The position numbers were made by a program, and so were the translations under genes. From assembly GCA_900318465.1 (NCBI GenBank), contig ONKQ01000050.1, positions 1 through 37,197 on the forward strand: a stretch of 37,197 nucleotides of DNA. The letters are read 5' to 3'. Source of the DNA: an uncultured Bacteroidales bacterium. Lineage in GTDB: Bacteria; Bacteroidota; Bacteroidia; Bacteroidales; F082. The notes beneath the pieces were generated by a model that did not search any database, was not told where the DNA came from, and saw nothing but the letters and a program-made list of their open reading frames with translations. Below are positions 7,708-24,490 of this stretch, one piece after another (positions within the stretch are counted from its first letter, which is position 1; every line of letters begins with the position of its first letter).

Positions 7708-7798
7708 ATTCGGAATTCGGAATGCTGAATTCGGAATATCGCGATGCGACGCTGGGCTTCGCCCTTATTCCGCATTCCGCATTCTTAATTCCGCATTC
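7708..7798. repeat. Inverted array of 7-bp repeats between mutA and mutB
   Basis: The left arm 7708-7737 reads as heptamers ATTCGGA, ATTCGGA, ATGCTGA, ATTCGGA, AT. The right arm from 7767 reads ATTCCGC, ATTCCGC, ATTCTTA, ATTCCGC, ATTC. The arms are imperfectly complementary, and the middle contains a small hairpin GGGC-TTC-GCCC (7754-7764) and the palindrome ATCGCGAT (7738-7745). The last heptamer overlaps the mutA stop codon (7797-7799). In the mRNA this would form a hairpin between the two cistrons. Confidence 0.8.
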
Positions 7799-9647
7799 AT
7801 TTTGTTATACCTAATTGCATTTGGAACTCTTTTAAGGTCTCAAGCACATTGCTCTTGACGTGGATGAAATACTTCAAGCCAGCCTCTTTTAGGATGTCGG
7901 CGGTGCCTTCGGGGTTGCCGGCCAGCACCACGATGGTGTCGTTCTTCAACTCCTCGAAAACCTTGAGGGCGTTGCCTTCGCCATATTCCTCATCGGAGGA
8001 GCAGATGACCACGATTTCGGGTTTCTCCTTGCGGGCAGCAGCGATGCCTTCGTCCAAGGTCTTGAAGCCCGGATTGTCGACGACTTGGAAGCCGGCGCAG
8101 GCGAAGAAGTTGGAGGCGAAGTTGGCGCGGGCCTTGCGCATGGCGAGGTTGCCGTAAGTGAACATCCATGCCACAGGACGCTTGTGGTCTTTGGCATAAA
8201 CATCGGTGGCATAGCGCAATTTTTCAAACTGTTGCGCAGCGCGGAAGGTGACGATGGTCTCGACCTCGGCCTTCTCGTCGCGGCGGTCGTCAGCTTCGAA
8301 CACCCAAGCCTCTGGCGTGAATTTCATCGTTTCGGTGAAGTTCGGGAACTGGTTGGTGCCGAGGATGGTCTCGCGGCGGGTGGCCACGTTGCTGAACTTC
8401 TTGGCAGCACTTTCCTTGATAAGGCCTTGAATCATGCCCTTGCGGACGGCTTCGAGATAACCGCCTTCGTCCTGGATTTTGTTGAACAAGTCCCAAGCGG
8501 CGGTGGCAAGGCTCTCGGTGAGGTTCTCAATGTAATAGGAACCTGCGGCGGGGTCGGCGACTTTGTCGAAATGCGACTCTTCCTTGAGGATGAGTTGCTG
8601 GTTGCGGGCGATACGGTCGGCGAAGTCGGTGGGGATTTCAAACGGCGTGTCGAACGGCATCACAGTGAACGAATCAACGCCACCGAGGACGGCTGACATC
8701 GTGCCCGTGGTGGTGCGCAACATATTCACATACGCATCGTAAAGGCTCATACCTAATTCAGCATTGGTGGCGTGGATGTGCATCTTTGCGTTCTCTTCCT
8801 TGCCGCCGTAGGCTTTCACGATGTTGGCCCAAAGCAGACGATAGGCACGCATCTTGGCCATTTCCATGAAGTAGTTCTGTCCAACGGCCACATTGTAGCG
8901 CATCTTTGGAGCAATCTCGTCGATGGTGAGACCTTTCTCGGTGAGTTTGTCTAAATATTCGGCACCTACGGCAAGGCTGAAGGCCATCTCCTGAACGATG
9001 GTGGCTCCAGCATTAGTGAAAACGTGGCTGTTGATACCAATAGTCTGGAAATCAGGCATATCAGCTTTCACCACAATGTAAGCCAGTTCCATATCGGCAC
9101 CCTCGTTGATATACCACACGCCTCGACGGATGTAGCGCGTCAGCGGGTCATAGTTCAACGAACCTTTGATGTTCGGAATCTTCGACAGCATCTCAAGTAT
9201 CGGCAAATGGTACTTGTTGTTGTAGAAGTTGATTTCCACCGCCTTCTGGTCGATGCCGTTGAGCAACGTCGAGATGGCGATGGTGTCGTAAACCTTGTCG
9301 TACTCCAACTTGAAGCCGATGCTGTTGGCTCCACGGCTGATGGCATTGAGGGCAGTTTTGTTGGCTTCATGCACGTCCTTCACGATGATGTCCTGACGGA
9401 CGAGCCAATTGTTGCCTTCGGGCTTATTGCCACGGACGTATGGGAACTCGTTGGGTTGCTGACCTGTCCACGGGATGTCGGCGAGGTTTTCGGCACGATA
9501 GTAGGGCCTCACATTGAAGCCTTCGGCTGTGCGCCAAACCAGTTTTTTGTTGTAGTCTGCCCCTTTGAGGTCCTTCTCAATGACGGCTTCCCATTCCTGG
9601 GTGCTCACTGGAGGAAATTCCTCAAAGAGTCTCTTTTTTTCTTCCAT
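7797..9647 (-). CDS. mutA: Methylmalonyl-CoA mutase, small (non-catalytic) subunit
   Basis: This is the partner of MutB in the heterodimeric mutase. The 616-residue chain has the same barrel-plus-flavodoxin layout, but the cobalamin lower-ligand motif DxHxxG is absent: the equivalent region reads ICSSDEEYGEGNALKV, as in known small subunits that do not bind cofactor. Recognisable blocks are FPPVSTQEWEAVIEKDLKGADY at the N terminus (in pieces), NAGATIVQEMAFSLAVGAEYL, and DPAAGSYYIENLT. It is the first gene of the mutAB operon. The start ATG 9647 is 73 bases after a TAnnTTTG box. Its stop codon is embedded in a short-repeat array. Confidence 0.97.
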   Translation of the reverse strand: MEEKKRLFEEFPPVSTQEWEAVIEKDLKGADYNKKLVWRTAEGFNVRPYYRAENLADIPWTGQQPNEFPYVRGNKPEGNNWLVRQDIIVKDVHEANKTALNAISRGANSIGFKLEYDKVYDTIAISTLLNGIDQKAVEINFYNNKYHLPILEMLSKIPNIKGSLNYDPLTRYIRRGVWYINEGADMELAYIVVKADMPDFQTIGINSHVFTNAGATIVQEMAFSLAVGAEYLDKLTEKGLTIDEIAPKMRYNVAVGQNYFMEMAKMRAYRLLWANIVKAYGGKEENAKMHIHATNAELGMSLYDAYVNMLRTTTGTMSAVLGGVDSFTVMPFDTPFEIPTDFADRIARNQQLILKEESHFDKVADPAAGSYYIENLTESLATAAWDLFNKIQDEGGYLEAVRKGMIQGLIKESAAKKFSNVATRRETILGTNQFPNFTETMKFTPEAWVFEADDRRDEKAEVETIVTFRAAQQFEKLRYATDVYAKDHKRPVAWMFTYGNLAMRKARANFASNFFACAGFQVVDNPGFKTLDEGIAAARKEKPEIVVICSSDEEYGEGNALKVFEELKNDTIVVLAGNPEGTADILKEAGLKYFIHVKSNVLETLKEFQMQLGITK

Positions 9648-9719
9648 TTGTTGTTTATTTAATTGATATTCTGTTTGTTAAATATTGTTTTCTTGCAAAA
9701 GTCGGTATAGAATCCATTG

Positions 9720-9727
9720 CAAAGTTA
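9720..9727 (-). promoter_or_regulatory. Bacteroidota -7 promoter box TAACTTTG for mutAB
   Basis: Read on the minus strand, the box matches TAnnTTTG and gives a leader of about 65 bases before mutA. I see no recognisable cobalamin riboswitch in this short leader. Confidence 0.55.
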
Positions 9728-9834
9728 GGAAATAAAGCGATTGGAATGGTAGGAAAATGCGCTATCGGTGAAATTTTCCTTGATTTGAACGTTTTTTGAA
9801 ACTGATTCTCGTCATTTTATCGATTATATACGAT

Positions 9835-9868
9835 AAAACAAAACCCGCAAGAGGTTTTCCTGCGGGTT
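9835..9868 (-). terminator. Rho-independent terminator after the lipocalin-like gene
   Basis: On the minus strand AACCCGCA pairs with TGCGGGTT across an 11-base loop, followed by a T-rich tail (complement of 9835-9843). It lies about 30 bases after the stop of the gene at 9898-10332. Confidence 0.75.
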
Positions 9869-9897
9869 CGTCGTGTTCTTTTGAGGTGTTTGGACTA

Positions 9898-10332
9898 TTA
9901 CCTTTTGAATTCCATTGATGTGGAGATTACATGTGAAGAAGAAGGATCTTCTGCGGATGCTTCCAATAATAACTTTCTGTTAGTCAGTTCTTTTATGGTG
10001 TAAATGATTGTTTGGCTTTCATCCGCATGATTTAATCCAGTGATAGTTACTTGATTGTCTTTCACAACATAAGTTGCTGGATTGGAAGAAGCATTGGCGT
10101 TAGGGTCTGGATTTTCTGCTGACTCACCGGTTAGAGTTCCGTCAGCACCGAAAATCCAAAACGCTCCGACCATGCCAGGTATGGTTCCAGTTTCGCCGTC
10201 CATGGTCACGGTTGCGGTTACACATTCCCATTTGCCGATGATGAGTTGTTCATTGGTCTTGTTGCATGAAGTTAAAGTAGTCAACGATAACACAAAGAGC
10301 AGCATTGCAAATACTTTTGTTGTCTTTTCCAT
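9898..10332 (-). CDS. Lipocalin-like lipoprotein
   Basis: The 144-residue product has a lipoprotein signal peptide (MEKTTKVFAMLLFVLSLTTLTSC, lipobox LTSC, Cys at residue 23). The mature part starts with the hallmark IIGKWECVTATV and continues in short beta strands (FWIFGADGTLTGE, TYVVKDNQVTITG, TIIYTIKELTNRKLLLEA), the pattern of the lipocalin-like domains common in Bacteroidota lipoproteins. Ligand and role are unknown. It stands alone, with its own terminator downstream and the 10333-10710 spacer upstream; no clear TAnnTTTG box was found before it. Confidence 0.8.
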   Translation of the reverse strand: MEKTTKVFAMLLFVLSLTTLTSCNKTNEQLIIGKWECVTATVTMDGETGTIPGMVGAFWIFGADGTLTGESAENPDPNANASSNPATYVVKDNQVTITGLNHADESQTIIYTIKELTNRKLLLEASAEDPSSSHVISTSMEFKR

Positions 10333-10408
10333 TCTTAATCCCTAAATACGTGACGGGCGCAACTTTTAATTCTCCTTCCCAATGCCTCAAAGGACAATTG
10401 TCTACAAA

Positions 10409-10584
10409 AGAAGCGTGGCACTGATATACCACATTCATGGATTTGGAGGTCGTGAGAATTACCTAATAATAACAGAATGTAATAATTAGCCCACGCAAAA
10501 TGCGAGAACCTATTACACTCTCTTGTTATTATAAATATTGGAAGTTTCTCACGTTTCCAAATCCAAGACGAGCATAACGCTTCT
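10409..10584. repeat. Long imperfect inverted repeat in the 10333-10710 spacer
   Basis: Nested arms pair in order: 10409-10416 with 10577-10584 (AGAAGCGT/ACGCTTCT), 10439-10447 with 10556-10564 (GGATTTGGA/TCCAAATCC), 10451-10458 with 10546-10553 (CGTGAGAA/TTCTCACG), 10466-10474 with 10524-10532 (ATAATAACA/TGTTATTAT), and 10478-10484 with 10511-10517 (TGTAATA/TATTACA). A small CGCA-AAA-TGCG hairpin (10494-10504) sits at the centre. No convincing reading frame is inside. It could be a MITE, a remnant of an insertion sequence, or a structured RNA. Confidence 0.75.
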
Positions 10585-10678
10585 TGATTCTTTTATGTCA
10601 GCGGCACAAAGGCCACCAAAGAACCGCTGCAAATATACCGCTTTTTTGCAAAAGCAAACGGAATTGACGAAAAAAATG

Positions 10679-10686
10679 TATCTTTG
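10679..10686 (+). promoter_or_regulatory. Bacteroidota -7 promoter box TATCTTTG for the toxin-antitoxin pair
   Basis: The box lies 24 bases before ATG 10711. The frame could be extended upstream to 10684, but that start falls inside this box, which supports 10711. Confidence 0.6.
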
Positions 10687-10710
10687 CGGTCAGAAACTAT
10701 TTGGTTTGAA

Positions 10711-11007
10711 ATGGATAAACAACAAGTACAGCAAATTGTTGCAGCATATTTTGCCAACCAGCCTGTGCTGAAGGCGTGGCTTTTCGGGTCTTTTGCCCGA
10801 GGCGAGGAAACACCCTTGAGCGATGTCGACATTCTCGTTGTTCTCGATCGCTCACAACCTATTGGGCTGAAGTTTTTCGGCATGTGGGATGATCTTGAAA
10901 AATTGCTTGACAGGAAAGTGGATTTGGTAACGGAGGGATCCTTGGCTCCTTTTGCCGTAGAAAGTGCTAACCGTGATAAAATATTGATTTATGAGAGAGC
11001 CGCTTAA
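10711..11007 (+). CDS. MNT-domain nucleotidyltransferase antitoxin (MntA-like)
   Basis: This 98-residue minimal nucleotidyltransferase has the signature GS (26-27) followed by DVD (Asp38, Asp40) in GSFARGEETPLSDVD, with a third acidic residue in KVDLVT (Asp71), so the metal-binding triad is complete. In characterised MntA/HepT pairs this protein neutralises the HEPN toxin by transferring AMP to a tyrosine next to the toxin's catalytic His. The following HEPN gene starts 17 bases before this stop, a typical coupled arrangement. The function is inferred from family and neighbour. Confidence 0.9.
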   Translation: MDKQQVQQIVAAYFANQPVLKAWLFGSFARGEETPLSDVDILVVLDRSQPIGLKFFGMWDDLEKLLDRKVDLVTEGSLAPFAVESANRDKILIYERAA

Positions 11008-11491
11008 AGACAAAAGCCGATTAGAACATATTCTCGGTGCAATTGATACTATTTTGGTTAGGGCAAACGGCCTGACATACGAGGGGCTGACCTCTGACAA
11101 AATATTGTTTGGGGGCATTGTGTATTATACAATGATTATCGGTGAGGCTGCTTATCACCTTAGTATGCCTTTCAAGAAAAAATACAATGAAACCAATTGG
11201 ACCCAAATAACTAAAATGCGCCACAATTTGGTGCATGGTTATTATCAAGTTGACCCAGATGTCGTTTGGTCGGTGATTCAAGACGATTTGGTGCCTCTGC
11301 GTGACCAAGTGATACGTTACATCACTGAAACAGATTGGGAAGAATGGGAGAAAAGTTATAAGGTTGTTACGGAAACCGCTGTCCATAAGAATCTAATTCA
11401 AACTGCAAGCCGCATGAAAAAAGACGGCATGGATACCAAACAGATTTCGAGATACACAGGACTAACCGCTGAGGAAATCGAGGAAATTTGA
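10991..11491 (+). CDS. HEPN-domain toxin (HepT-like, DUF86) with an extra C-terminal tail
   Basis: The product has 166 residues. The all-helical HEPN domain (about 5-115) carries the RNase motif Rx4HxY: Arg77, His82, Tyr84 in RHNLVHGYY. Tyr84 is in the position that MntA-type partners AMPylate. Most HepT proteins stop after about 110-145 residues; here residues 128-166 form a helical tail (NLIQTASRMKKDGMDTKQ, then ISRYTGLTAEEIEEI). That tail strongly resembles the C-terminal motif of Rpn/PD-(D/E)XK transposase-like proteins, where a short HTH-like unit follows the nuclease. It overlaps the antitoxin gene by 17 bases, and GH89 starts 12 bases after it. Toxin activity is predicted, not shown. 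Confidence 0.88.
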   Translation: MREPLKDKSRLEHILGAIDTILVRANGLTYEGLTSDKILFGGIVYYTMIIGEAAYHLSMPFKKKYNETNWTQITKMRHNLVHGYYQVDPDVVWSVIQDDLVPLRDQVIRYITETDWEEWEKSYKVVTETAVHKNLIQTASRMKKDGMDTKQISRYTGLTAEEIEEI

Positions 11492-11503
11492 AATCACTAT
11501 ATT

Positions 11504-13726
11504 ATGAAAAAACTCTACTTAATCACAGCATTAAGCCTCGTGCTTTGCGTTTCATGCACGAAAAAAGAAACCGACCCCGAAGTCATCGCCATGCGCGGAT
11601 TGGTGAACCGCGTGGTGCCGGAGTATTCACAAGGCATTGTCCTTGAACGGCTTGCTGACACCATCGACCGCTTTGAAATTGAAACACAGGGCAAGAGCCT
11701 CGTCATTCGTGGCAACAACGCCAACAGCATGGCCGTGGGCCTGAACCATTACCTGAAATATTATTGCAAGGCGCAATATTCATGGTTCATTGAAGAGCCT
11801 TTGCAGATTCCCGTCGCGATGCCCAAGGTGACTGAAAAAGTCAGCCTGAGTGCCCGTGTGCCTGACCGTTTCTTCCTGAATTACTGCACTTTCGGTTACA
11901 CTTTGCCTTGGTGGAATTGGTCACAATGGGAGCACTTCATTGACTGGATGGCACTCAACGGCATCAACTTGCCTTTGGCCATCACGGGACAAGAATCCGT
12001 TTGGTACGAGGTGTGGAGCGATTTCGGTCTAACCGACGAGGAAATCCGCAGCTATTTCACGGGTCCGGCGCACCTGCCGTGGCATCGTATGCAGAACATC
12101 GACCGCTGGGGCGGGCCTTTGCCCATGTCGTGGCTCGAAAACCAAAAGGAACTGCAAAAGAAAATCGTGGCTCGTGAGCGCGAACTGAATATGAAACCTG
12201 TTTTGCCGGGCTTTGCTGGTCACGTTCCGCCCTGCATCACAAGGATTTTTCCTGATGCACCTTTGGCCTCTTTGGGCGACTGGGCTGGCTTCGACAGCAT
12301 CTGTTGGTGCAAGTTCCTCGACCCGCTTGACCCGCTTTACACTGAGATTCAGAAAAAGTTCATCGCCAAGCAGACCGAATTTTACGGCACTGATCACATC
12401 TACGGCATCGACATTTTCAACGAACTCATCCCGCCGAGCTGGGAGCCTGAGTACCTCGCTCGCGTGAGCCGTCAAGTGTATGAATCCCTCGAAGCCGCCG
12501 ACCCCGATGCGAAATGGCTCGAGATGGCATGGCTGTTCTGGAATGAGCGTCAATATTGGGAAGTCGACAACCGCATTGAGGCTTACATCACCTCTATGCC
12601 GAAGGACAGGCACATCATGCTCGATTACTACTGCGAAAGACAACCCGTGTGGGAACGCACCAATGCTTATTACGGTGTGCCTTACATTTGGTGCTATCTT
12701 GGCAATTTTGGCGGCAACTCTATGTTGGCTGGAAACCTTGACACTGTGAACGTTAGGGTTGAACGCGCCTTCGAAAAAGGTGGCGAAAACTTCGTCGGCA
12801 TCGGCTCCACATTGGAAGGTTTTGACTGCAATCCGTTTATGTATGAATACGTCTTCGAGAAGGCTTGGGACAACCCGCTTACCCGCGATGTGGACGCTTG
12901 GGTGGAACGCCTCGCCGACCAACGCGCTGGAAAGGAAGAACCGAACATGCGAGCCGCTTGGACTTTGCTTGCCGACAGCGTATATAATAAGGTGTCGTCG
13001 CCGGGCCAGACCGTCCGCATCAACCAAAGGCCGACGATGGGCGACATTAATGAATACCGCCAATATTATGTCGCGCCGACTTATCTATACAACAATATCA
13101 TGCTTTTGGATGTGTTAGATAAGCTATTAGTCGCCGACTGCAACACCCGCACACGCCATTTTGATGTGGTGAACATCACAAGGCAACTGTTGGGCAACTA
13201 TTTCAGCGACCTTTACGCCGATTATGTAAAAGCCTATCGCGAAGGCGATTACGAGAAACTCCATCAAATCGAACAAACGATGACCAACATCCTCGACGAT
13301 ACGGACAAGATTTTGGCCACAGAAAGTGCATTCTTGGTTGGTCGCTGGATTCGCGATGCAAGAGCCATCGGCACGACGGAGGAAGACAAGGACTACTTCG
13401 AGAGCAACGCCCGCAACATCATCACCACATGGGGCGAGGAGGATGCCTTGCTCAACGAATACGCCAGCCGCGCTTGGGCGGGTCTCATTGATACCTATTA
13501 CGCTTATCGTTGGAAGGAGTTCTTCAAGGATGTGGATGCCGCCATCGAAGCGGGTCAGTCTTTCGATGAGAAGGCTTATCACGAGCGCATCTGCAAGTAC
13601 GAAGGCCAGTGGTGGCGTGAGCGTCTTGGTAATTTTAGTGCTGAGCCTCAAGGTGATGGCGTGGCTTTGGCAAGAGGTATTGCCGAGAAATATCGTGCTG
13701 AATTGGAGGCGAGATATAGGAAGTAA
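11504..13726 (+). CDS. Alpha-N-acetylglucosaminidase lipoprotein (GH89, NAGLU family)
   Basis: The 740-residue enzyme is predicted to release terminal alpha-linked GlcNAc from host glycans such as heparan sulfate or gastric mucin. The lipoprotein signal (MKKLYLITALSLVLCVSC, Cys18) places it on a membrane. The three GH89 parts are present: an N-terminal small alpha/beta domain (about 25-105), the catalytic barrel starting at NYCTFGYTLPWWNWSQWE, and a C-terminal helical domain. The likely catalytic acids are Glu307 (GIDIFNELIPPS) and Glu438 (GSTLEGFDCNP), both conserved. No SusCD pair or other glycosidase is near, so this is a stand-alone gene. It follows the toxin gene by 12 bases and may be read with it. 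A 44-bp repeat array begins 7 bases after its stop. Confidence 0.96.
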   Translation: MKKLYLITALSLVLCVSCTKKETDPEVIAMRGLVNRVVPEYSQGIVLERLADTIDRFEIETQGKSLVIRGNNANSMAVGLNHYLKYYCKAQYSWFIEEPLQIPVAMPKVTEKVSLSARVPDRFFLNYCTFGYTLPWWNWSQWEHFIDWMALNGINLPLAITGQESVWYEVWSDFGLTDEEIRSYFTGPAHLPWHRMQNIDRWGGPLPMSWLENQKELQKKIVARERELNMKPVLPGFAGHVPPCITRIFPDAPLASLGDWAGFDSICWCKFLDPLDPLYTEIQKKFIAKQTEFYGTDHIYGIDIFNELIPPSWEPEYLARVSRQVYESLEAADPDAKWLEMAWLFWNERQYWEVDNRIEAYITSMPKDRHIMLDYYCERQPVWERTNAYYGVPYIWCYLGNFGGNSMLAGNLDTVNVRVERAFEKGGENFVGIGSTLEGFDCNPFMYEYVFEKAWDNPLTRDVDAWVERLADQRAGKEEPNMRAAWTLLADSVYNKVSSPGQTVRINQRPTMGDINEYRQYYVAPTYLYNNIMLLDVLDKLLVADCNTRTRHFDVVNITRQLLGNYFSDLYADYVKAYREGDYEKLHQIEQTMTNILDDTDKILATESAFLVGRWIRDARAIGTTEEDKDYFESNARNIITTWGEEDALLNEYASRAWAGLIDTYYAYRWKEFFKDVDAAIEAGQSFDEKAYHERICKYEGQWWRERLGNFSAEPQGDGVALARGIAEKYRAELEARYRK

Positions 13727-13732
13727 AGGAGT

Positions 13733-13908
13733 CCCGAAGGGACGACAGCGATATAGGCAGGTGGTGTAAACCCCTGCCCGAAGGGACGACAGCGATATAG
13801 GCAGGTGGTGTAAACCCCTGCCCGAAGGGACGACAGCGATATAGGCAGGCGGTGTAAACCCCTGCCCGAAGGGACGACAAATCAATAAGCAGGCGACGTT
13901 AGTCCCTG
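13733..13908. repeat. Four tandem 44-bp repeats with a conserved hairpin
   Basis: Units start at 13733, 13777, 13821 and 13865. Units 1 and 2 are identical, unit 3 differs by one base, and unit 4 is diverged in its second half. Each unit begins CCCGAAGGGACGACA. Units 1-3 can fold as GGCAGG-(T or C)-GGT-GTAA-ACC-CCTGCC, with a GNRA-type loop. In unit 4 the inner pairs change on both sides to GAC/GTC with loop GTTA, so pairing is kept. The array fills the gap between GH89 and guanine deaminase. A weak partial copy (GCGAGATATAGGAAG) lies at the very end of the GH89 gene. Confidence 0.93.
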
Positions 13909-13925
13909 CACTAACACACACAGCT

Positions 13926-14405
13926 ATGAACATCACAGAACAAGATAAAGAATACATGCGCGAGGCCATCCGATTGGCCGACGAAAGCGTGAAAAACGGT
14001 GGCGGTCCCTTCGGGGCCGTCATCGTGAGAGATGGCGAAATCATCGCGGGCAGTGCCAACAGCGTAACCCGCGACAACGACCCTACCGCCCATGCCGAGG
14101 TGAATACCATCCGCCAAGCCTGCCGCAAACTCGGCACTTTCGACCTCTCGGATTGCGTCATCTATACCTCTTGCGAGCCTTGTCCGATGTGCCTCGGTGC
14201 CATCTATTGGGCACGTATCGGACGTATATATTACGGCAACACCAAAAAAGATGCCGCCGACATCGACTTTGCCGATGACTTCATTTACAAGGAGTTGGAG
14301 CAACACATCGGAGAGCGTTCAGTGCCGTTCATCCCTTTGCTGCGCGATGAGGCCATTAAGACCTTCCGCACATGGGAGGCGAAACAGGACAAAACGAAGT
14401 ATTGA
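13926..14405 (+). CDS. guaD: Guanine deaminase
   Basis: This enzyme deaminates guanine to xanthine in purine salvage or catabolism. The 159-residue protein has the cytidine-deaminase fold with zinc ligands His56 (in HAE, proton shuttle Glu58) and Cys86/Cys89 (EPCPMCLGAIYWARI). The blocks GGPFGAVIV, NDPTAHAEVNTIRQAC and the C-terminal DAADIDFADDFIYKEL closely follow the Bacillus GuaD pattern, rather than the tRNA adenosine deaminase TadA. Its length is typical. It starts 17 bases after the 44-bp repeat array and converges on cysQ with a 13-base gap. I found no clear promoter box, so transcription may come through the repeats from GH89. Confidence 0.9.
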   Translation: MNITEQDKEYMREAIRLADESVKNGGGPFGAVIVRDGEIIAGSANSVTRDNDPTAHAEVNTIRQACRKLGTFDLSDCVIYTSCEPCPMCLGAIYWARIGRIYYGNTKKDAADIDFADDFIYKELEQHIGERSVPFIPLLRDEAIKTFRTWEAKQDKTKY

Positions 14406-14418
14406 CAGTAGCTTGTCG

Positions 14419-15189
14419 TTATCTTCCCTTTGCCCACGCCACAAATGGTGGGTTGGGATATTCCATTTTGCTGTATTCCAAAGGCTTCCCATTGCTAATG
14501 CGGAGCACCTTGCCGCCTGAGGCGCAAAGAATGGCTTCGGCAGCGGCGGTGTCCCATTCCTTTGTTTTGCTGTAGCACACATACACATCGGCAGAGCCTT
14601 CGGCTAATCGGGCAAACTTGAGGCTGCTGCCCTGCGTGTCAATCACCAAGTCGGGGTGGGAGGGACGCAATACCTTATTAATATAATCGTCTACTTCCTG
14701 AGTGCGATGCGAGCGGCTGACTAAAACCGTAAATGGACACGAGACGTGAGACTGCGGGACGCGAGGCAAAAGACACACAGAAGTCCCGTGCCCCGTGTCT
14801 TTATATACCTTGTCGTTATCGTTATACCATAAAGTTTCAGTTACTGGGGCATAGATGACTCCCAACACTGGCCGTTTGTTATCAATCAGCGCGATGTTGA
14901 CGGTGAATTCGCCGTTGCGTTTCACAAATTCCGCCGTACCGTCCAAAGGATCGACGAGCCAATATCGCTCAAATGTGGAACGGTCGGGGGGCAAGTCCTC
15001 TTCGCTGACGAAAGGCAATCCTGTAGGCGCCAATGTCTCTTTGATGATGTGGCTCGCTCGCAAATCGGCCTGCGTAACGGGCGAGTCATCGTCTTTGGTG
15101 TAGACTTCAAAAGGTGTGGCATACACTTCCATGATGGCTTTTCCGGCCTTGAGTGCTGCTTTTTTTGCGATGGTGAGTAGATTTTCCAT
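14419..15189 (-). CDS. cysQ: 3'(2'),5'-bisphosphate nucleotidase, with an in-frame repeat insertion
   Basis: The enzyme hydrolyses 3'-phosphoadenosine 5'-phosphate (PAP) to AMP, a clean-up step of sulfate assimilation. The 256-residue protein has the inositol monophosphatase-family metal sites: PVTQADLRAS, SEED (62-65), WLVDPLDGTAEF (Asp80, Asp83) and WDTAAAEAILCASGG. Residues 131-151 (DTGHGTSVCLLPRVPQSHVS and the next residue) are encoded by a palindromic, short-word repeat at 14735-14799 and do not look like family sequence; they fall in a loop before VLVSRSHRT, where CysQ lengths vary. The enzyme is probably still folded. The promoter-like TATTTTTG ends only 4 bases before the ATG, suggesting a leaderless or very short-leader mRNA. 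Confidence 0.92.
   Translation of the reverse strand: MENLLTIAKKAALKAGKAIMEVYATPFEVYTKDDDSPVTQADLRASHIIKETLAPTGLPFVSEEDLPPDRSTFERYWLVDPLDGTAEFVKRNGEFTVNIALIDNKRPVLGVIYAPVTETLWYNDNDKVYKDTGHGTSVCLLPRVPQSHVSCPFTVLVSRSHRTQEVDDYINKVLRPSHPDLVIDTQGSSLKFARLAEGSADVYVCYSKTKEWDTAAAEAILCASGGKVLRISNGKPLEYSKMEYPNPPFVAWAKGR
14735..14799. repeat. Palindromic short-word repeat inserted inside cysQ
   Basis: The ends are imperfect inverted repeats: GACACGAGACGTGAGAC at the left and the complement of GACACGGGGCACGGGAC at the right (12 of 17 positions agree). The left arm reads in steps of 7 (GACACGA, GACGTGA, GACTGCG) and the right arm likewise (GTCCCGT, GCCCCGT, GTC). The element is read in frame as part of cysQ. 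A related element lies at 19782-19856. Confidence 0.8.
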
Positions 15190-17658: not shown

Positions 17659-17665
17659 GAGGGAA

Positions 17666-18283: not shown

Positions 18284-18452
18284 CGTCGTGCAAAAGTTCG
18301 TATTCAATGGTTTCTTGTGGCACGTAGCTCCACTTGGTGCAGGTGTTGCAATGGCGCGGTGTCCTGACGCGACCTGGCACTTCCTTGGTCTTGCAGGAGG
18401 CTGCCAACAAAACCAAACTTAGTAATAACAGAATGAACAATTTACTTTTCAT
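18273..18452 (-). CDS. Very small lipoprotein with a CxxC motif
   Basis: A 59-codon frame runs from ATG 18452 to TGA 18273. The product begins MKSKLFILLLLSLVLLAASC, a textbook lipoprotein signal with lipobox AASC (Cys20). The mature part is only about 40 residues: basic at first (KTKEVPGRVRTPR), then a HCNTCTKW cluster, then an acidic end (IEYELLHDDEG). It lies 48 bases after the envC-like stop and overlaps the SprT-like start by 11 bases, so it looks like a genuine member of this operon. I know no family name. The CNTC pair could bind metal or be redox-active (inference). Confidence 0.75.
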   Translation of the reverse strand: MKSKLFILLLLSLVLLAASCKTKEVPGRVRTPRHCNTCTKWSYVPQETIEYELLHDDEG

Positions 18453-18500
18453 TTTTTTCCATTTGGTTTTGTGAGTTTTGCAGGTTTTGTGACATGTTTT

Positions 18501-19883
18501 TCATTTCGACAACCAATTTTCGGGGTTTTGTCTGACTTGTTCCTTCAGCAGTTCAAAGTGCAACTCGGTCTTGCCTTCGGTCTTGCTTGTATGTATGGTG
18601 CCGAGGTTTTGCTTGGTCTTTACCTTGTCGCCGCGCTTCACGGTGACGTTCTCCAAGTTGGAATAGACTGTGAAATACTCGCCGTGGCGGACGATGACCA
18701 CCGTGTTGGCACCGGTCAATTTGGTGACGCTGGCCACTTCGCCATCGAACACGGCGCGGGCTTGTGCCCCTTCGGTGGTGGCGATGTCGATTCCGTTGTT
18801 GGTCACGGTGACTTTGCTCGACACCACGGAGGCGTGTTTGCCGTAGGACGAAGAGATGATGCCGCGTTCCACGGGCCAAGGTAGTTTGCCCTTGTTGCCG
18901 ACGAAGTCGGACGAGAGTGCTTTTTCGGCGGGTGTCAGGGCCATTCCTTTTTCCTTGGGTGCAGGTGCGGTGGTCTTGCCTTTTTCTTTGGCTTGCTTTT
19001 CGGCTTCCTTGCGTTTGCGTTCGGCTTCGGCGTTGGCCTTGCGTATTTCCTCGGCGATGATGTCGTCGATGGCCTTTTGCAACTTCTTGGCCTGCTTCTG
19101 CTTGTTAGTGATGTCTTGCTGTATGCTGCCTTCCTTTTTCTTCAGCTTGGCCACCTGGAGGTTGAGGTCTTCTTTCTCGGTTTTGAGGGCGTCTTGCTGA
19201 GCCTTCTCGTCTTTCAGTAGGGCGGCTTGTTCTTCGCGGGCTTGTTGGTTGGCTTCCACTTCGCCAGTAATGCGTTGCTCGGTGGCGGTGATTTGATCCA
19301 TCTTGATTTTTCGGGCATCGTTGAACTGTCGGATGTAGCGAAGGCGGCTGAAGGCTTGGTTGAAGTCTTTGGAAGCGAAAACAAAGCCCAAACGGTCGTA
19401 ATGGCTGCGGTTGCGGTAGGCAAAAGTAATCATCTTCGCGTATTCCTTGCGCAGCGACTTCAAATCGGAGTTCAGGGTTTTGATGTTGTTTCGTCCGGCA
19501 TTGATTTCTTTGTCAAGTATGGCGATTTGTTCGTTGTAGGCTTTGATAAGGTTCTCGCGTTGCTTGATTTTCTTGTCCAACAGCGAGACCTCGTTGAGGG
19601 TCATCTCCTTGTCTTTTGTGGTCTTTTTCAGCAATTGGTTGGCGGTCGAAATCTCCTTCTGTAAAGAGGTGATTTCGTTTTGCAACTGTTGCTTCGATTT
19701 GCCTTTCGTCTTTTGAGCGTATGTTGGAGAAACTGATAATACTATTGCACATACAACTGCCAATAAGATGCGTATGTAGTTGACGCGAGACTGCGAGGCA
19801 CGAGACGCGAAGCTTTTTAGGAACGTCTCATGTCCCGAAGTCTCGAGTCCCGAGTCAAATAATATGATACCTGGTTTCTTCAT
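18501..19883 (-). CDS. EnvC-like murein hydrolase activator (coiled coil plus degenerate M23/LytM domain)
   Basis: The 460-residue periplasmic protein has a long coiled coil (about 62-300) and a LytM domain (about 345-455). The LytM metal site is degenerate: the HxxxD position reads NNGID (Asn362, Asp366), the YAHL His is Asn409 (VYSNL), and HxH reads ELH (only His442 kept). This matches EnvC/NlpD-type activators, which switch on amidases during septum splitting rather than cutting murein themselves. The signal peptide core (RILLAVVCAIVLSVSPTYA) starts unusually late, near residue 38. Residues 10-34 before it are encoded by a palindromic repeat (19782-19856). No ATG lies between that repeat and the signal core, so ATG 19883 is needed; it overlaps the DUF4292 stop by 4 bases. 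Confidence 0.9.
   Translation of the reverse strand: MKKPGIILFDSGLETSGHETFLKSFASRASQSRVNYIRILLAVVCAIVLSVSPTYAQKTKGKSKQQLQNEITSLQKEISTANQLLKKTTKDKEMTLNEVSLLDKKIKQRENLIKAYNEQIAILDKEINAGRNNIKTLNSDLKSLRKEYAKMITFAYRNRSHYDRLGFVFASKDFNQAFSRLRYIRQFNDARKIKMDQITATEQRITGEVEANQQAREEQAALLKDEKAQQDALKTEKEDLNLQVAKLKKKEGSIQQDITNKQKQAKKLQKAIDDIIAEEIRKANAEAERKRKEAEKQAKEKGKTTAPAPKEKGMALTPAEKALSSDFVGNKGKLPWPVERGIISSSYGKHASVVSSKVTVTNNGIDIATTEGAQARAVFDGEVASVTKLTGANTVVIVRHGEYFTVYSNLENVTVKRGDKVKTKQNLGTIHTSKTEGKTELHFELLKEQVRQNPENWLSK
19782..19856. repeat. Palindromic short-word repeat inside the 5' end of the envC-like gene
   Basis: The left arm has words GACGCGA, GACTGCGA, GGCACGA, GACGCGA; the right arm has GTCTCAT, GTCCCGA, GTCTCGA, GTCCCGA, GTC, the imperfect complement. 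The words are mostly spaced by 7 bases and resemble those of the element within cysQ. It is read in frame and lengthens the n-region of the signal peptide. Confidence 0.8.
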
Positions 19884-20443
19884 TGTTTCATTGGCAATTG
19901 GATGCGTTCCATCTTGTTGGTAATTTTCAGCGGAAAGGTGGTGGGTTGGTCCAATTTGATGTTGGAGTATTTTAGCTTAACTTTAATATCTCCTGTATAG
20001 TAATCGTATTGATTCCACCCAACCGTTTGGTTTTCAACGGGTGGAATGCCTTCGATATTGTCCAAAAGCACAAATTGCGCAAACGGTAGTCTCAAACCAA
20101 ATAAAGGTCCGATTTGCTGATCGAGGCTGTCTACATGCTCGGCCAAATAGGTCTTTTCCAAGCGGTTGAGAATCCAGATGGAATCGTTGCTGATTTTGGC
20201 ACGTAATACTTCCACACCCATTGTGGCGGTCACGCTGACCCAGACAAGGCTGTCTTTCCTCATCCTGAGTTGCCCTGATAAGTCATTGAAAGACTGTCCG
20301 TTGACTTCGGCTTGGATGGCCATGTTGGCGGTGAGCCATTCAAAAGATTGCGGCGGTGCAGGTGCCACGGTTTTCTTGCGTGAGGCGCAGGAGGAAGCCG
20401 TGAGCAGCAGGGCGAGGAATGATATTTTTATTAGGTTATTCAT
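19880..20443 (-). CDS. DUF4292-family lipoprotein
   Basis: The 187-residue product (from ATG 20443; 20458 would add five residues) has a lipoprotein signal MNNLIKISFLALLLTASSC with lipobox ASSC. The mature protein is beta-rich (ANMAIQAEVNGQSFNDLSG, then MRKDSLVWVSVTATMGVEVL, then ISNDSIWILNRLEKTYLAE), the pattern of the DUF4292 family, whose fold resembles LolA/LolB-type lipid-binding half-barrels. Its molecular role is not established. It overlaps the envC-like gene by 4 bases. In Bacteroidota this gene commonly lies between a TPR gene and the M23/EnvC gene; here the TPR gene is separated from it by a restriction-modification pair. Confidence 0.85.
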   Translation of the reverse strand: MNNLIKISFLALLLTASSCASRKKTVAPAPPQSFEWLTANMAIQAEVNGQSFNDLSGQLRMRKDSLVWVSVTATMGVEVLRAKISNDSIWILNRLEKTYLAEHVDSLDQQIGPLFGLRLPFAQFVLLDNIEGIPPVENQTVGWNQYDYYTGDIKVKLKYSNIKLDQPTTFPLKITNKMERIQLPMKQ

Positions 20444-20497
20444 AGAGGTGTATCTCATCCTCAGTTCAAAACAAGTTTTGATATTTTGCGAACAGTC

Positions 20498-21610
20498 TTA
20501 TACGATCATTCTGTTTGCCATGGTTTTTTTGCTTAAAGCTGCAATCAAAATATTGCGTGGAGGACAAACCGAAGCTAAAACAATGTCTTGAAAACAAGGT
20601 TGAGGACTATTATTATTGTCGGCTCTTATCGGACCAGAATATAGAACAGTTTTGCCCAAAGAAATAGTTTGATTTGGCTTTACATGTTTATAATTGTCCC
20701 CGTATGAGAAAGCAAGGATATTTACTTCATCAGTATGTTCTGCGATGAACTTATGTAAATCAAGTGCAGTGCTGGAAGAGATATAGTCGGCAAGCAGGTC
20801 TTGCAAAACCCAAATTGTTTTGCCGCCCCAAGTCATAGCAGCTTGCGATTTGACAATCAGTTGACTTGCCATTCTTGCCCAAACTTGTCGGTAATTAATG
20901 CCGGGTGCTAAATGTGGCTTCCCTAACACACAATCTTCAAACGCTTGTGGAATACAGCTTCTTTTTTTCTTGTTTCCGCCAGAAGTGCTTGAAGTCATAA
21001 CTTCTACTATTACAGGATTTCCTATAGGGAAATCTTCGATATAAAGGTCTTCGTTTCTCTTGGCAAAAGTATGTCCACTATCACGCAGATATTTTTCCAA
21101 AACACTCCATTCCAAACCAGAATCTACGACCGCCCTTTCTTTTGTTACCTTTCCCAAAGGCATTAACACATAATCGAATGTATAGTCGAAAGCCGAAGTG
21201 TCATCATCTTCATTGTCATAGATATACTTTACTTTTAATTCCGCCCAAATTCCAATCTCCATGCCTTTTGGGATGCCGCATTTTTCTAGAAGTTTTGTTT
21301 GTGTTTCTCCTTTCAAAACGCTTTTATTAGCTTTCTTCCCCATATACAATAAACGTCGAGGGCAAATAATCCAAGGAGCGGTGTCATCCGATAATTGAAT
21401 GGAACATACGCCCGAAGGAACGCTATCCAAATTTGGGAACAATTTCTTCAATTCATCGTGGTTGCTCAAATCTATTTCCGACATGAAACGGTTGCCGCCG
21501 CCGTCACATCTGTCAGAAATAAACGGGCAATAAGCTTTTTCCCTTGATTTGATTACAGCAGGGCTGTTGTCATCTATCGGGTATCCGAGCAATTCATAGA
21601 TTTTTGGCAT
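20498..21610 (-). CDS. NotI-family type II restriction endonuclease
   Basis: The 370-residue protein matches the layout of R.NotI. Four cysteines, which in NotI hold a structural iron, are at 28 and 35 (YCPFISDRC), 69 (SGVCSIQL) and 83 (WIICPRRLL). The nuclease core follows: an acidic residue in FDYTFDYVL (about Asp146) and Glu203 in VIVEVMTSSTSGG, corresponding to NotI FDWTL and LEIQTMD. NotI uses E-x-Q; here the third residue is Met205 (E-V-M), an unusual substitution at the catalytic Lys/Gln position. The later helix block (YRQVWARMASQLIVKSQ) also fits. It overlaps the methyltransferase gene by 37 bases. The recognition site cannot be read from sequence. The gene is visibly richer in A and T than its neighbours. 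Confidence 0.85.
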   Translation of the reverse strand: MPKIYELLGYPIDDNSPAVIKSREKAYCPFISDRCDGGGNRFMSEIDLSNHDELKKLFPNLDSVPSGVCSIQLSDDTAPWIICPRRLLYMGKKANKSVLKGETQTKLLEKCGIPKGMEIGIWAELKVKYIYDNEDDDTSAFDYTFDYVLMPLGKVTKERAVVDSGLEWSVLEKYLRDSGHTFAKRNEDLYIEDFPIGNPVIVEVMTSSTSGGNKKKRSCIPQAFEDCVLGKPHLAPGINYRQVWARMASQLIVKSQAAMTWGGKTIWVLQDLLADYISSSTALDLHKFIAEHTDEVNILAFSYGDNYKHVKPNQTISLGKTVLYSGPIRADNNNSPQPCFQDIVLASVCPPRNILIAALSKKTMANRMIV

Positions 21611-22713
21611 AAGATAATCTCCTTTACTTTTATGGCTACGGCTTTGGCAAGAGGCGGAGGCACGGAGTTCCCCACCTGTCGGTGTTGGTCTAAACTTTTT
21701 ATGGTTCCTGTCCTACCGCGAATAGGGCCTCTTAATACATAACTATCAGGGTAACCATGTATTCTCATGTATTCTCGTGGCGTTAAATATCTGTCTTCAG
21801 TTGGGTGGAAAAAAATCTCTCCACCACGCAAGGTGTTTGATGGGCGATTGCGGTCAAGACGCAAAAACTTGGTTGTGTCTTTTTGTGTCAATCCACCAAT
21901 TTGTTCTTTGGGAAGATGGGTTTGTGAAGATAAGTTTTTCCCTTCTGGCACTCCGTGTATGCGTTCCCTGTCGCGGCAAGGTGTCACATCATAATGGCTG
22001 TTATCAGGGATAATATCAGTTTCTGCTTTTAATATTGGTTGTCCGAGTCCACTGATAACTTCGCCGACGGTACTATAAGGCAGCAGACCAAACAAACTCA
22101 TGGTTTCAGAAGGTTGGGAATGTGTTGGAAAAGGAAATTGGAAACCATTAGGCTTTTTTGTGGCAACTATGAAAACCCTTTCTCTCAATTGTGCGACTCC
22201 GTAATCAGCAGCCAGCATGACGCGCCATTTCGGAACATAATCTAATGCTTCAAGCTCTTTTATGAATTGTTCAAAAACTCCTCCACTCTTTCCGTTTAAA
22301 TCTTTTGCATTGAGAAGCCCCTTCACTTGTTCTACCATCAAGGCTCGTGGTTGTATGGTTTTTGCATACCTGATCATTTGGAACAACAGCACACCGCGCT
22401 CGTCAAGCATAGATTTTTGTTTTCCTATTTGAGAAAAGGCTTGACAAGGAGGACCACCAAAAAGTAAATCCACTTCACCCGATTTATAACCTAAATCATC
22501 AAGAATTTGTTGGGGGGAAATATCTTTTATATCTCCTTCATAAACAAAGGTTTCTCTTTCTCCTCTTGATATGTTTTCTCTCAGCGTTTCACAACAATGT
22601 TTGTCAAGTTCGACACAGGCGAGGATTTCAAATCCCGCCTGTTGCACTCCGATATCCATACCTCCGGCTCCAGAAAACAGAGAAATTGCTGTCAAACCAT
22701 GTTCTGCTGTCAT
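21574..22713 (-). CDS. C5-cytosine DNA methyltransferase of a type II R-M system
   Basis: The 379-residue enzyme carries the ordered C5-MTase motifs: I FSGAGGMDIG (13-22), IV GGPPCQAFS with nucleophile Cys90, VI VEQVKG (Glu128), VIII QLRERVFIVA (175-184), then RPSNTLRGG and X QVGNSVPPPLAKA. Motif VI is usually ENV; here it is EQV, with the catalytic Glu kept. The target-recognition region lies between motifs VIII and the C-terminal blocks (about 190-290). It protects the host DNA against the overlapping NotI-like nuclease. A TAATTTTG box 31 bases upstream gives the pair its own promoter, with the methylase first, as expected for safe establishment. Its A/T-rich bases suggest transfer. Confidence 0.95.
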   Translation of the reverse strand: MTAEHGLTAISLFSGAGGMDIGVQQAGFEILACVELDKHCCETLRENISRGERETFVYEGDIKDISPQQILDDLGYKSGEVDLLFGGPPCQAFSQIGKQKSMLDERGVLLFQMIRYAKTIQPRALMVEQVKGLLNAKDLNGKSGGVFEQFIKELEALDYVPKWRVMLAADYGVAQLRERVFIVATKKPNGFQFPFPTHSQPSETMSLFGLLPYSTVGEVISGLGQPILKAETDIIPDNSHYDVTPCRDRERIHGVPEGKNLSSQTHLPKEQIGGLTQKDTTKFLRLDRNRPSNTLRGGEIFFHPTEDRYLTPREYMRIHGYPDSYVLRGPIRGRTGTIKSLDQHRQVGNSVPPPLAKAVAIKVKEIILCQKSMNCSDTR

Positions 22714-22743
22714 GCTCTTTGTGGATAAAAACTATTCAAACCG

Positions 22744-22751
22744 CAAAATTA
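22744..22751 (-). promoter_or_regulatory. Bacteroidota -7 promoter box TAATTTTG for the R-M pair
   Basis: On the minus strand the box matches TAnnTTTG, 30 bases before the methyltransferase ATG. It sits in the 102-base gap after the TPR gene. Confidence 0.6.
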
Positions 22752-22815
22752 GCACTTTTTTGGGAATTGTCAATATCTAAGATGATGGCAGAAAGTTTTC
22801 GTTCCATCTCTTAAA

Positions 22816-24432
22816 CTACTCAATTTTTTTCAGTTTATCCATAATCGCCTCATAATGCTTAGTATAGGTTTCGTCAGGCTCTTTCAGCAGTTTCAGGGCT
22901 TTTTTCATTTGCTTTTCGGCTTCCTTGTAGTCGCCCTTCATATAAAGCACCCAAGCGTGAGTGTCCAAATAAGTTGGGTTGTCGGGTTCGGCGGCGATGG
23001 CTTTGGTTGACATTTCCAAGGCCTTGTCCAAGTCTTGGCCTTTCACGGCGAGATAATAGGCGTAATTGTTGAGAACCAACACATTGTCGGGGTCGTTGCG
23101 CAAGGTGCGCTCGTAGGCATCGAAGGCTTTCTCCTCGTCGCCTTGCTCGTGGTAGAGGTCGCCAAGGAAAGCGTCGAAGTTGGATAACTGAATCTTGTCG
23201 GTGGTATAGCGTCGGCCTTTTTCCAAATAGTTGATGGCCTCGTCGTTGATTTTCAGGACGGCACTGGCCACGCCCGCATACCAATAGAAAACGGGCTGCA
23301 TCGGGTAGTATTTCAAAGCCTTGATGGCGTGTTCGCGAACATTCTCGTTTTCGTTCAGTCTTGACTCGCTGATGACAAGGTTTTGCCATCCGTAGAAGTC
23401 GGTGCTGTCAATGTCCAACACTTGTTGGTATATCTCCTTGGATTTCACGGCGTTTTGTTCCACTATGTAATAGGAGCCGAGGATAAGGTAGCCCAATTTG
23501 TTGTCGGGATGGGTTTCGATGAAGGCCTCGCCGCATTGCCGCGCCTGCTCGTCGATTTCGTTGGATTTTTCGTTTTTCCCCATCCAATAGTCCCAGATGT
23601 TAGCTTTTGTGGCAATGTCGAGGTTTTTGTTTCGGATGGTGGCCAGGAGTTCGTTGAAAGCCTTTTCCTTGTCGCCGTTTTTCTCGTAAAACTCCAACAA
23701 TGAGACGTTTATGTAAGGGTCGTTTGGGTTCACTTCCTTGATTTTCTCGTAGGTTTTTAAGGCTTCCTTGTCCTTGCCCATTGCGGAATATTCTTGTGCG
23801 AGCAAGGAATAATAGCGCACGTTTTCAGGGTTTTCCGAGATGAGTTTTTCGAGTTCTGCAATCAGTTTTTTGCTGTTGTTTTGGCGTTTGAGCACGTTGA
23901 GGCGTTGCTCGGTGATGATTTCGTTTGGCCCAATCTGCTGTTCCAATTGGTTCATCTTTTCCAAGGCCTTGTCGTAATTCTCAGTAATCAGATAGGCATC
24001 GATTAGCTCGCTAAGCATGTCGAGGTCGTCGGGATATTTCTGGACGAGTCTCTCATACAGGCTGATGAAATCGTCATATTGCTCCAAATTGCGGTAGAAT
24101 TGGCCGAGGCGCAATTGGTACCACTTGTTCTCAGGGTCGAGGTTGGCGGCTTGCTTTATCATCTTGAAAGCCTCTTCCATGCGGCCGGCGTTGTAGTATT
24201 GTTCGCTCAACTCGAACATCGAGGCAGCATCGTCGGGCATATAGCGCAAAGCCTGCTCAAAGTTGCGAATGGCACCCTCGGTGTCCTCGCGGTACTTGCT
24301 TTGGAGGCCGTTGGAGAAATAGGTGGCGTTTTTGCGTTTGTCGGGCTTGCCGTTATACTCCGATTCCATCGTTTGGGCAAAGCACCACATCGAGCAACCC
24401 AAAACCAGAAACAATAAAACTTTATATCTCAT
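22816..24432 (-). CDS. Secreted tetratricopeptide-repeat protein
   Basis: The 538-residue protein begins with a signal peptide (MRYKVLLFLVLGCSMWCFAQ), which alternatively could be read as a lipoprotein signal. The rest is a nearly continuous solenoid of TPR units, for example AIRNFEQALRYMPDDAASMF, AFKMIKQAANLDPENKWYQL, AFDAYERTLRNDPDNVLVLN and ALEMSTKAIAAEPDNPTYLD, with the usual Ala/Pro positions. It should act as a periplasmic scaffold. Bacteroidota commonly keep this gene between dut and DUF4292/EnvC, suggesting a link to cell-envelope assembly (inference). Its 5' leader is made of a 7-bp repeat array that runs into the end of dut. Confidence 0.92.
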   Translation of the reverse strand: MRYKVLLFLVLGCSMWCFAQTMESEYNGKPDKRKNATYFSNGLQSKYREDTEGAIRNFEQALRYMPDDAASMFELSEQYYNAGRMEEAFKMIKQAANLDPENKWYQLRLGQFYRNLEQYDDFISLYERLVQKYPDDLDMLSELIDAYLITENYDKALEKMNQLEQQIGPNEIITEQRLNVLKRQNNSKKLIAELEKLISENPENVRYYSLLAQEYSAMGKDKEALKTYEKIKEVNPNDPYINVSLLEFYEKNGDKEKAFNELLATIRNKNLDIATKANIWDYWMGKNEKSNEIDEQARQCGEAFIETHPDNKLGYLILGSYYIVEQNAVKSKEIYQQVLDIDSTDFYGWQNLVISESRLNENENVREHAIKALKYYPMQPVFYWYAGVASAVLKINDEAINYLEKGRRYTTDKIQLSNFDAFLGDLYHEQGDEEKAFDAYERTLRNDPDNVLVLNNYAYYLAVKGQDLDKALEMSTKAIAAEPDNPTYLDTHAWVLYMKGDYKEAEKQMKKALKLLKEPDETYTKHYEAIMDKLKKIE

Positions 24433-24434
24433 AA

Positions 24435-24490
24435 CTGATAACTATAAACTTTCAACTCTCAACTTTCAACTTTCAACTATTAACTCTCAA
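24435..24490. repeat. Eight phased 7-bp repeats (CTnnnAA) between dut and the TPR gene
   Basis: Read on the plus strand the units are CTGATAA, CTATAAA, CTTTCAA, CTCTCAA, CTTTCAA, CTTTCAA, CTATTAA, CTCTCAA, without a break in phase. They start 3 bases before the TPR start codon and contain the dut stop codon (24487-24489). Confidence 0.88.

Follow-up and report, generated by a model that had tools for sequence, protein, structure and literature searches.

Results

Four heptamer arrays and the genes around them

In this work we have analysed a stretch of 37,197 nucleotides from an uncultured Bacteroidales bacterium of the rumen (assembly GCA_900318465.1, contig ONKQ01000050.1, positions 1 to 37,197; hereafter the window, in whose coordinates positions are given unless a locus is named), which carries four arrays of short degenerate repeats with a 7-bp period (Table 1). 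Identifiers of the form L### and G### denote the loci and genomes compared. An earlier note on this DNA had placed arrays at four sites, and all of them are present. Our best reading is that they are gene-less miniatures of elements that, in their full form, carry a four-helix-bundle gene. Arrays 2 and 3 lie in coding frames of the Inositol_P/CysQ-like and M23/EnvC-like types, respectively, so the coding insertions of which the note spoke do occur, and array 4 occupies the spacer between dut (24487-24954) and a TPR open reading frame (ORF; 22816-24432), taking in the dut stop codon.

Three of the arrays had been credited with inverted arms, and we find these in array 1 (7707-7738/7766-7797, 84% complementary), array 2 (14736-14753/14782-14799, 72%) and array 3 (19782-19807/19824-19849, 81%); the inverted-arm search gave none of note in array 4. 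As RNA, arrays 1 and 3 fold far better than shuffled sequences (z of -4.3 and -4.2), array 2 weakly so (z of -1.9) and array 4 no better than shuffles (z of +1.6). The locus of array 1 (L188) counts five anchors spaced 7,7,7,7, and the right arm of array 3 (L200) five exact GAC anchors spaced 7,7,8,7. Tandem Repeats Finder called period 7 at 7707-7737, 7767-7798, 19832-19856 and 24447-24492, and made no such call at 14735-14799, the site of array 2, which is the most degenerate of the four. Under strict period scoring array 4 alone passes, so that the window by itself is weak evidence for period 7, and the strictly scored autocorrelation within it was dropped for want of sequence. The family search of the genome placed no PF05635 match in the window, whose copies are too short for such an ORF; since no PF05635 gene lies between their arms, we class them as miniature derivatives only. 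Nor do they lie within an rRNA gene, as Rfam at its gathering thresholds gives just a tRNA in the window.

Table 1. Heptamer arrays of the window
Feature	Position	Strand	Description
Array 1, left arm (class A)	7707..7738	+	five AAT anchors at 7-bp spacing (AATTCGG/AATGCTG units)
Array 1, core (class A element)	7739..7765		includes the dispersed core, 7740-7764
Array 1, right arm	7766..7798	-	inverted, five anchors; adjoins the stop codon (7797-7799) of the upstream methylmalonyl-CoA mutase ORF
Array 2 (class B, GAC anchors)	14736..14799		decayed palindrome, in frame within a CysQ-like ORF, 14419-15189 (-)
Array 3 (class B)	19782..19856		palindrome, in frame within the N-terminus of an EnvC-like M23 ORF, 18501-19883 (-)
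Array 4 (class C)	24433..24492	-	direct array; nine AGTT anchors in the minus-strand reading

A period of seven across the genome and the genus

The earlier note had called for a scan for period 7 beyond the window. Across the window and 40 further stretches of its genome, which amount to 525,140 non-N bases (three of the 40 read entirely as N), we found 41 segments of period 7, none of period 6, five of period 8 and between 0 and 5 for each other period from 4 to 13, while one order-2 Markov control gave no period-7 segment; beyond period 7 only the harmonics 14, 21 and 28 are high. Seven of these stretches had been chosen around pattern hits, which biases the sample; without them and without the window, the remaining 347,943 bases hold 25 segments of period 7 against 0 of period 6 and 3 of period 8, and any other period from 4 to 13 gives at most 4. 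Within the genus, 20 stretches from 11 genomes (365,430 bases) gave 38 period-7 segments against 0-5 for the other periods from 4 to 13, with at least one in 9 of the 11 genomes, and 703,665 syntenic bases, orthologous copies included, gave 28 against 0-4. The 20 stretches from other families of the order (14 genomes, 14 families) held no segment at this threshold, and a lower threshold brought out a single weak one. Heptamer palindromes occur in two Bacteroidota records further removed (L106, L107). The genus and other-family stretches were chosen by contig number, several of them on contigs known to hold a cysQ relative, and the close relatives compared are metagenome-assembled genomes of uncultured Bacteroidales or Bacteroidia, several from ruminants. 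Period 7 is a real, genome-wide property.

The sample of this genome, biased stretches included, is 82% coding, and of its 44 array groups 34 are intergenic, 8 lie in called ORFs and 2 are unclear (ORFs were called by a purpose-written codon-usage script, and arrays 2 and 3 fall below the threshold of this placement scan). Between co-directional genes stand 30 of the 34 intergenic groups, with 3 in convergent spacers and 1 in a divergent one; taken together, all gaps of 20-600 bp comprise 156 tandem, 43 divergent and 31 convergent. Instead of falling off, array lengths cluster near 31 bp, the length of five anchors plus four spacers: in the unbiased stretches of this genome 7 of 44 segments measure exactly 31 bp and 13 of 44 measure 30-34 bp, and in the genus sample 19 of 66 measure 30-34 bp, 17 measure 23-29 bp and 7 measure 35-41 bp.

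Different word classes coexist, namely A (AATGCGG type), B (GACNCGA), C (AGTTGAA), D (AATCTTG), E (TTAGCTN) and others, among whose words a candidate purine rule (A-R-T) was noticed. Within an arm the anchor is constant and a spacer of about 4 nt varies. The view that the arrays do not descend from one copied sequence holds between word classes and fails within class A, whose copies have in common a 25-bp core that recurs, at up to 3 mismatches, in 12 genomic places (control count 0); exactly five anchors spaced 7,7,7,7 are found in 19 of the 24 arms of these copies. At the class B loci L200, L202, L204, L208 and L209 one arm bears five exact GAC anchors spaced 7,7,8,7, class B anchor counts being less telling than those of class A because random windows also yield chains of five when one mismatch is allowed. 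The class B pattern occurs in 36 of 60 genus genomes, with 0 to 54 matches each and 2 control matches overall, an unevenness as expected of lineage-specific bursts. At one junction, judged by eye, a class A element stands in this genome (L194) and a class B element in G110 (L340, at about 1500). Another dispersed palindrome, around CTTCGACAGGCTCAGGG, differs between close species, apparently inside coding genes (L070, L071, L072, L074, L077, L078, L080 and L086).

Four-helix-bundle genes between inverted arms

Arrays of opposite orientation standing several hundred bases apart enclose a four-helix-bundle gene that matches PF05635 and TIGR02436, the '23S rRNA intervening sequence protein' family. 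The association was scored as a period-7 array at most 300 bp from the gene, with control genes of at least 200 aa, in three sets. The Bacteroidales set numbers 47 genes (54 hits before duplicates were removed by their last 100 residues), among them L019, L058 and L033, first met through sampling of this genome or pattern hits and also returned by the family search. The plasmid set, from other phyla, takes 17 of the 37 plasmid records with a match, mostly the best-ranked, and the phylum set, a separate draw over Bacteroidota elsewhere, takes the best match per genome with a given locus (29 loci, 27 with an ORF found). Arrays lie upstream of 31, downstream of 36 and on both sides of 27 of the 47 Bacteroidales genes; for the plasmid genes the counts are 12, 11 and 9 of 17, and for the phylum set 16, 11 and 10 of 27. 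The control genes of the genus give 52, 57 and 9 of 434, and those of other families 3, 3 and 1 of 204. With periods 5, 6, 9 and 10 no gene of the Bacteroidales and plasmid sets is flanked on both sides, and with period 8 this holds for 3 of 47 and 2 of 17. The arms are inverted in 30 of the 36 genes that have both, and the modal anchor count of gene-flanking arms is five (31 of 90).

Besides Nostoc, Anabaena, Calothrix, Trichormus and other cyanobacteria, the plasmid set draws on Gemmatirosa, whose arms have 8-bp units, and on Azospirillum. In the last of these the locus is an intervening sequence (IVS) inside the large subunit (23S) rRNA gene and has inverted 7-bp arms, so that the class includes an IVS of the kind that named PF05635. 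Cyanobacterial copies stand at operon junctions too, such as those between cas6 and cas4 and between cas10 and a gene of the Cmr3 family; at L271, L277 and L281, on plasmids of cyanobacteria, genes for four-helix-bundle proteins were noted inside CRISPR-cas operons. Among 61 genomes drawn over the phylum, 37 have a PF05635 match at E 1e-20 or better.

Arm words track the protein among close relatives

After loci with homologous outer flanks had been collapsed, 37 were left for a comparison of arm words with proteins. The word of the nearest protein neighbour lies at a mean distance of 2.41 letters, against 3.42 (sd 0.18) under permutation, and none of 5000 permutations was as low; with the reverse-complement word the distance is 3.73, so the orientation of the word relative to the gene is also fixed. 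Pairs of proteins at least 60% identical differ by 1.7 letters (10 pairs), those at 45-60% by 2.9 (31 pairs) and less similar ones by 3.3-3.6. Inspection by eye pairs the MEVFGYRKL subfamily with AGTTTAG/AGTTGAG, MRDFHNYKVW with words anchored on AGC, and SYKRFEDLP with words resembling AATCTTG.

Free arrays also resemble the arms of the genes in their own genome. In stretches of this genome not chosen for arrays (n=24), the mean distance is 1.04 to the words of its own four-helix-bundle arms, with 17 of 24 within one letter, against 1.65 to the words of other genomes (0/500) and 1.75 to shuffled words (0/200); the biased sample gave 0.86 (n=43), and 1.04 is the unbiased value. The match to own words also favours G011 and G020, in small numbers. 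In the window, the distance to the arm words of the genome's own four-helix-bundle genes is 1 for array 1, 0 for array 4 and 3 for arrays 2 and 3.

Occupied and empty sites in relatives

A comparison of orthologous loci with and without arrays had also been proposed, and both states were found, for example at EnvC, at dut and at one gene junction. This junction is empty in L063 and L076, where stop and start codons overlap; L081 and L085 hold an AGTTTAG element with its gene there, and L084 and the genome under study a GCCAATA element, whose four-helix-bundle gene is a different one. That a single junction is empty in some relatives and holds either of two elements in others supports insertion. 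The near identity of the L084 gene and that of this genome (L251) was considered as a sign of transfer and rejected, as the sites are orthologous. Among the matches listed, the EnvC insert recurs in L067, decayed there, and is absent from L063, L064, L069, L070, L071, L073, L075, L084, L085, L087, L089 and L093. Likewise among the matches listed, the position behind dut has no array in L065, L072, L080 and L091, and arrays of several words in L070, L071, L073, L081, L084, L085, L087, L090, L096, L097, L104 and L110. At the CysQ site all 15 relatives examined carry at the same place an insert unlike that of the window: heptamer arrays of other words in six (L119-L122, L124 and L125), in-frame hairpins resembling repetitive extragenic palindromic (REP) elements in place of heptamers in eight (L092 and L112-L118, of which L092 and L112-L117 are alike) and another sequence in one (L123). 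This position appears to serve as a general landing site.

Closely related loci differ in array length by single 7-bp units (L087 versus L081, L084 and L085; L097 versus L110; L078 versus L086). Seeding of the words purely from local host sequence looked plausible at dut, where the host end AGAGTTGA or AGAGATAA matches the array word, and at cysQ, where the host AATGTGG adjoins AATGCGG arrays; it was dropped as the main cause since words are common to unlinked sites and match the arms of four-helix-bundle genes. As judged by eye, the right arm of the element at L084:14730-15215 is continuous in frame with the next gene, which it extends at the N-terminus in place of the usual start. At about position 998 of L093 there is a 7-bp tandem duplication of TCGGGAC relative to L070, L071 and L073, apparently coding, which may be an assembly error.

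A fold found in five-chain crystal entries

The AlphaFold2 model of the L081 protein has four helices, at a mean predicted local distance difference test score of 76. Foldseek matched it to all five chains of entry 2gsc and of entry 2rld and, more weakly, to the Avd protein of diversity-generating retroelements (4dwl, 8ub7). In sequence comparison the L081 protein was matched at 2.4e-18 by 2gsc, the XCC0516 product of Xanthomonas, and the class A protein at 4.3e-35 by 2rld, which is BT_0352 of Bacteroides thetaiotaomicron. Both entries hold five identical chains, and their titles read 'hypothetical' for 2gsc and 'unknown function' for 2rld. A ring of five subunits, set beside an arm of five anchors, would suggest one anchor per subunit.

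A separate repeat was noted in the window, a 44-bp tandem repeat at 13733-13899 (3.3 copies with 99% matches, called in an 88-bp version as well), just past the end of the ORF at 11504-13726.

Discussion

We consider it likely that the arrays belong to a family of small mobile elements, as their terminal arms and as miniature derivatives without a gene; the protein of these elements would form a ring of five that takes five anchors. A full element would consist of an arm of about 31 bp, one PF05635/TIGR02436 four-helix-bundle gene and an inverted copy of the arm, each arm typically bearing five anchor motifs 7 bp, sometimes 8 bp, apart. Each protein subfamily would pair with its own word, so that the different words of one genome would reflect several element subfamilies. 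We hypothesize that each of the five subunits may take one anchor of the arm as single-stranded RNA or DNA, and that the ring on its anchors may mark the ends of the element for mobilisation. Insertions would survive mostly at co-directional gene junctions and in tolerant protein segments, and the arms would later alter by gain or loss of single units and by substitutions in the spacer. With less assurance, we incline to a wider proposal: that these elements form a widespread class in bacteria (Bacteroidota, Cyanobacteriota, Alphaproteobacteria and, with 8-bp units, Gemmatimonadota), built of one pentameric four-helix-bundle protein and inverted arms with five copies each of its own word, one per subunit. 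The miniatures would then be the source of bacterial heptamer repeats, the classical 23S rRNA IVS would be one landing site, and protein and word, changing together, would make up a readable code of one repeat per subunit.

Several observations weigh against this interpretation. A crystal entry with five chains is no proof of a pentamer in solution, and the three proteins scanned showed no transposase, nuclease or polymerase domain in Pfam and NCBIfam. The copy number of gene-flanking arms is often not five (four in 14 of 90, six in 18 of 90), and the length cluster in the genus has its shoulder at 23-29 bp. Six of the 36 arm pairs score better as direct repeats, some of which (L219, L281) are, by eye, a whole palindrome on each side; 17 of the 27 genes elsewhere in the phylum have no array on at least one side; and among the plasmid loci L274 and L277 have 8-bp arms, L278 has no clear arms and some are near copies of each other (L272/L273, L279/L280). 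Word and protein are linked among close relatives only; taken over all protein pairs, the rank correlation is weak (rho -0.12), and there is no trend below 45% identity. The match of free arrays to own words fails in G009, G017, G018 and G021, with 1 to 8 arrays each. The class B words of arrays 2 and 3 stand three letters from the nearest four-helix-bundle arm words of this genome, and among the 49 class B loci read (L199-L218, L316-L344) we met no four-helix-bundle gene flanked by arms of class B; a search for such a gene in 29 loci from 60 genus genomes turned up a single four-helix-bundle gene, which has AGTT anchors and is of the class C type. No exact target-site duplication was established.

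Replication slippage with a 7-base preference, an idea put forward by Mrazek for long simple sequence repeats (LSSRs), as reported in the part of MacGregor 2015 (PMC4679880) considered here, could make or enlarge the arrays and leave the association with four-helix-bundle genes incidental. We regard this as unlikely, even though orthologous arrays do differ by one 7-bp unit and long arrays show harmonics at 14 bp and above; the single-unit gains and losses indicate that slippage exists as a secondary process, which did not create the pattern. A simple slippage microsatellite would fall off steadily in unit number with no preferred length, and the arrays cluster instead at 30-34 bp, with the shoulder in the genus at 23-29 bp. 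Slippage is further contradicted by the constant five-anchor arms of class A around a common core, by the inverted arms and the words common to unlinked sites, by the association with one protein family across phyla and by the absence of arrays at threshold from the other-family sample. The earlier note had suggested one generating mechanism, such as slippage or an enzyme with a 7-base step: that one thing lies behind the arrays holds up, while neither slippage alone nor such an enzyme suffices, given the lengths near five anchors, the inversion of the arms, the words that recur at unlinked sites and the arms that flank four-helix-bundle genes.

It is also improbable, in our view, that the arms are regulatory or processing sites at the RNA level, serving autoregulation of the four-helix-bundle gene or forming RNase III hairpins that excise the insert from transcripts, with solo copies as decoys or terminators. 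The strong RNA hairpins of arrays 1 and 3, the placement of 30 of 34 intergenic groups between co-directional genes and of 1 of 34 in divergent spacers, and the one arm-bearing gene inside 23S rRNA would all suit such sites, whereas the class C array has no hairpin, the in-frame cysQ and envC copies have no evident regulatory use and the numbers are lineage-specific, from 0 to 54 matches. That the palindromes are REP-like elements moved by a Y1 transposase of the REP-associated tyrosine transposase (RAYT) type we hold to be very improbable. Palindromes are dispersed at gene ends and Y1 transposases occur in 32 of the 40 genomes searched, but G015 and G017 carry arrays with no Y1 match, and 12 of the 14 other-family genomes sampled have Y1 genes and no arrays at threshold; since the presence of Y1 does not track the arrays, a Y1/RAYT transposase was rejected as their driver.

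The mobile-element interpretation matters for two questions at once. Heptamer repeats have been reported with no agreed source, and we know of no function for PF05635 proteins; tying the two turns both questions into one testable system, with the predictions of five anchors for five subunits and of subfamily-specific words. It also shows how short insertions can seed a genus at operon junctions and inside proteins and, if true, four-helix-bundle elements may explain many of the puzzling 7-base repeats of bacteria. In our judgement, heptamer repeats and PF05635/IVS are each known separately and their joining is new; among the papers listed from the open-licence literature that we searched, none joins them and none bears on Avd pentamers.

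How do these elements compare with known systems? Among the closest is the 23S rRNA IVS, which is excised from the transcript by RNase III. An IVS with an S23/PF05635 ORF shares the protein family, and that of Azospirillum bears inverted 7-bp arms; the copies in the window differ in having no ORF and in lying in spacers and protein-coding frames, not in rRNA, and five-anchor, subfamily-specific arms are, to our knowledge, not part of the description of IVSs. The Avd protein of diversity-generating retroelements has the same fold (4dwl, 8ub7), with bAvd matches below the curated cut-off; heptamer arms are absent from the single phage Avd locus looked at (L286). The TRAP protein wraps repeated triplets, and the arms described here resemble its targets in a constant anchor, a free spacer and tolerance of an extra base. 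The palindromic elements of Rickettsia, like arrays 2 and 3, interrupt protein-coding genes without breaking the frame; they form sequence families not known to have a heptamer grid, whereas here words differ between orthologous sites.

The cyanobacterial heptamer repeats that the earlier note had named are the right comparison. Short tandemly repeated repetitive (STRR) sequences are heptamer repeats of cyanobacteria, and the present arrays share their form of head-to-tail degenerate heptamers scattered through spacers. Other descriptions of heptamer repeats include the TAACTGA repeats (MacGregor 2015, PMC4679880), the LSSRs (Mrazek 2007, as cited by MacGregor 2015, PMC4679880) and the GGGNATC repeats of Xanthomonas and Nostoc (Rehm 2015, PMC4692102), which have heterogeneous units, strongly conserved at positions 1-4 and 6, and include some inverted pairs. 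As far as the portions of these papers considered here go, the likeness lies in 7-bp units that stand chiefly in intergenic DNA, close to start or stop codons, and in some cases inside ORFs. In the same portions, S1, Csp or CsrA-like proteins are suggested as binders and no transfer mechanism was found (MacGregor 2015, PMC4679880), and no general link of the repeats to mobile elements was found (Rehm 2015, PMC4692102). Four-helix-bundle genes are not mentioned in those portions of either paper; in the arrays described here, in contrast, the repeats are tied to such genes and five anchors are preferred.

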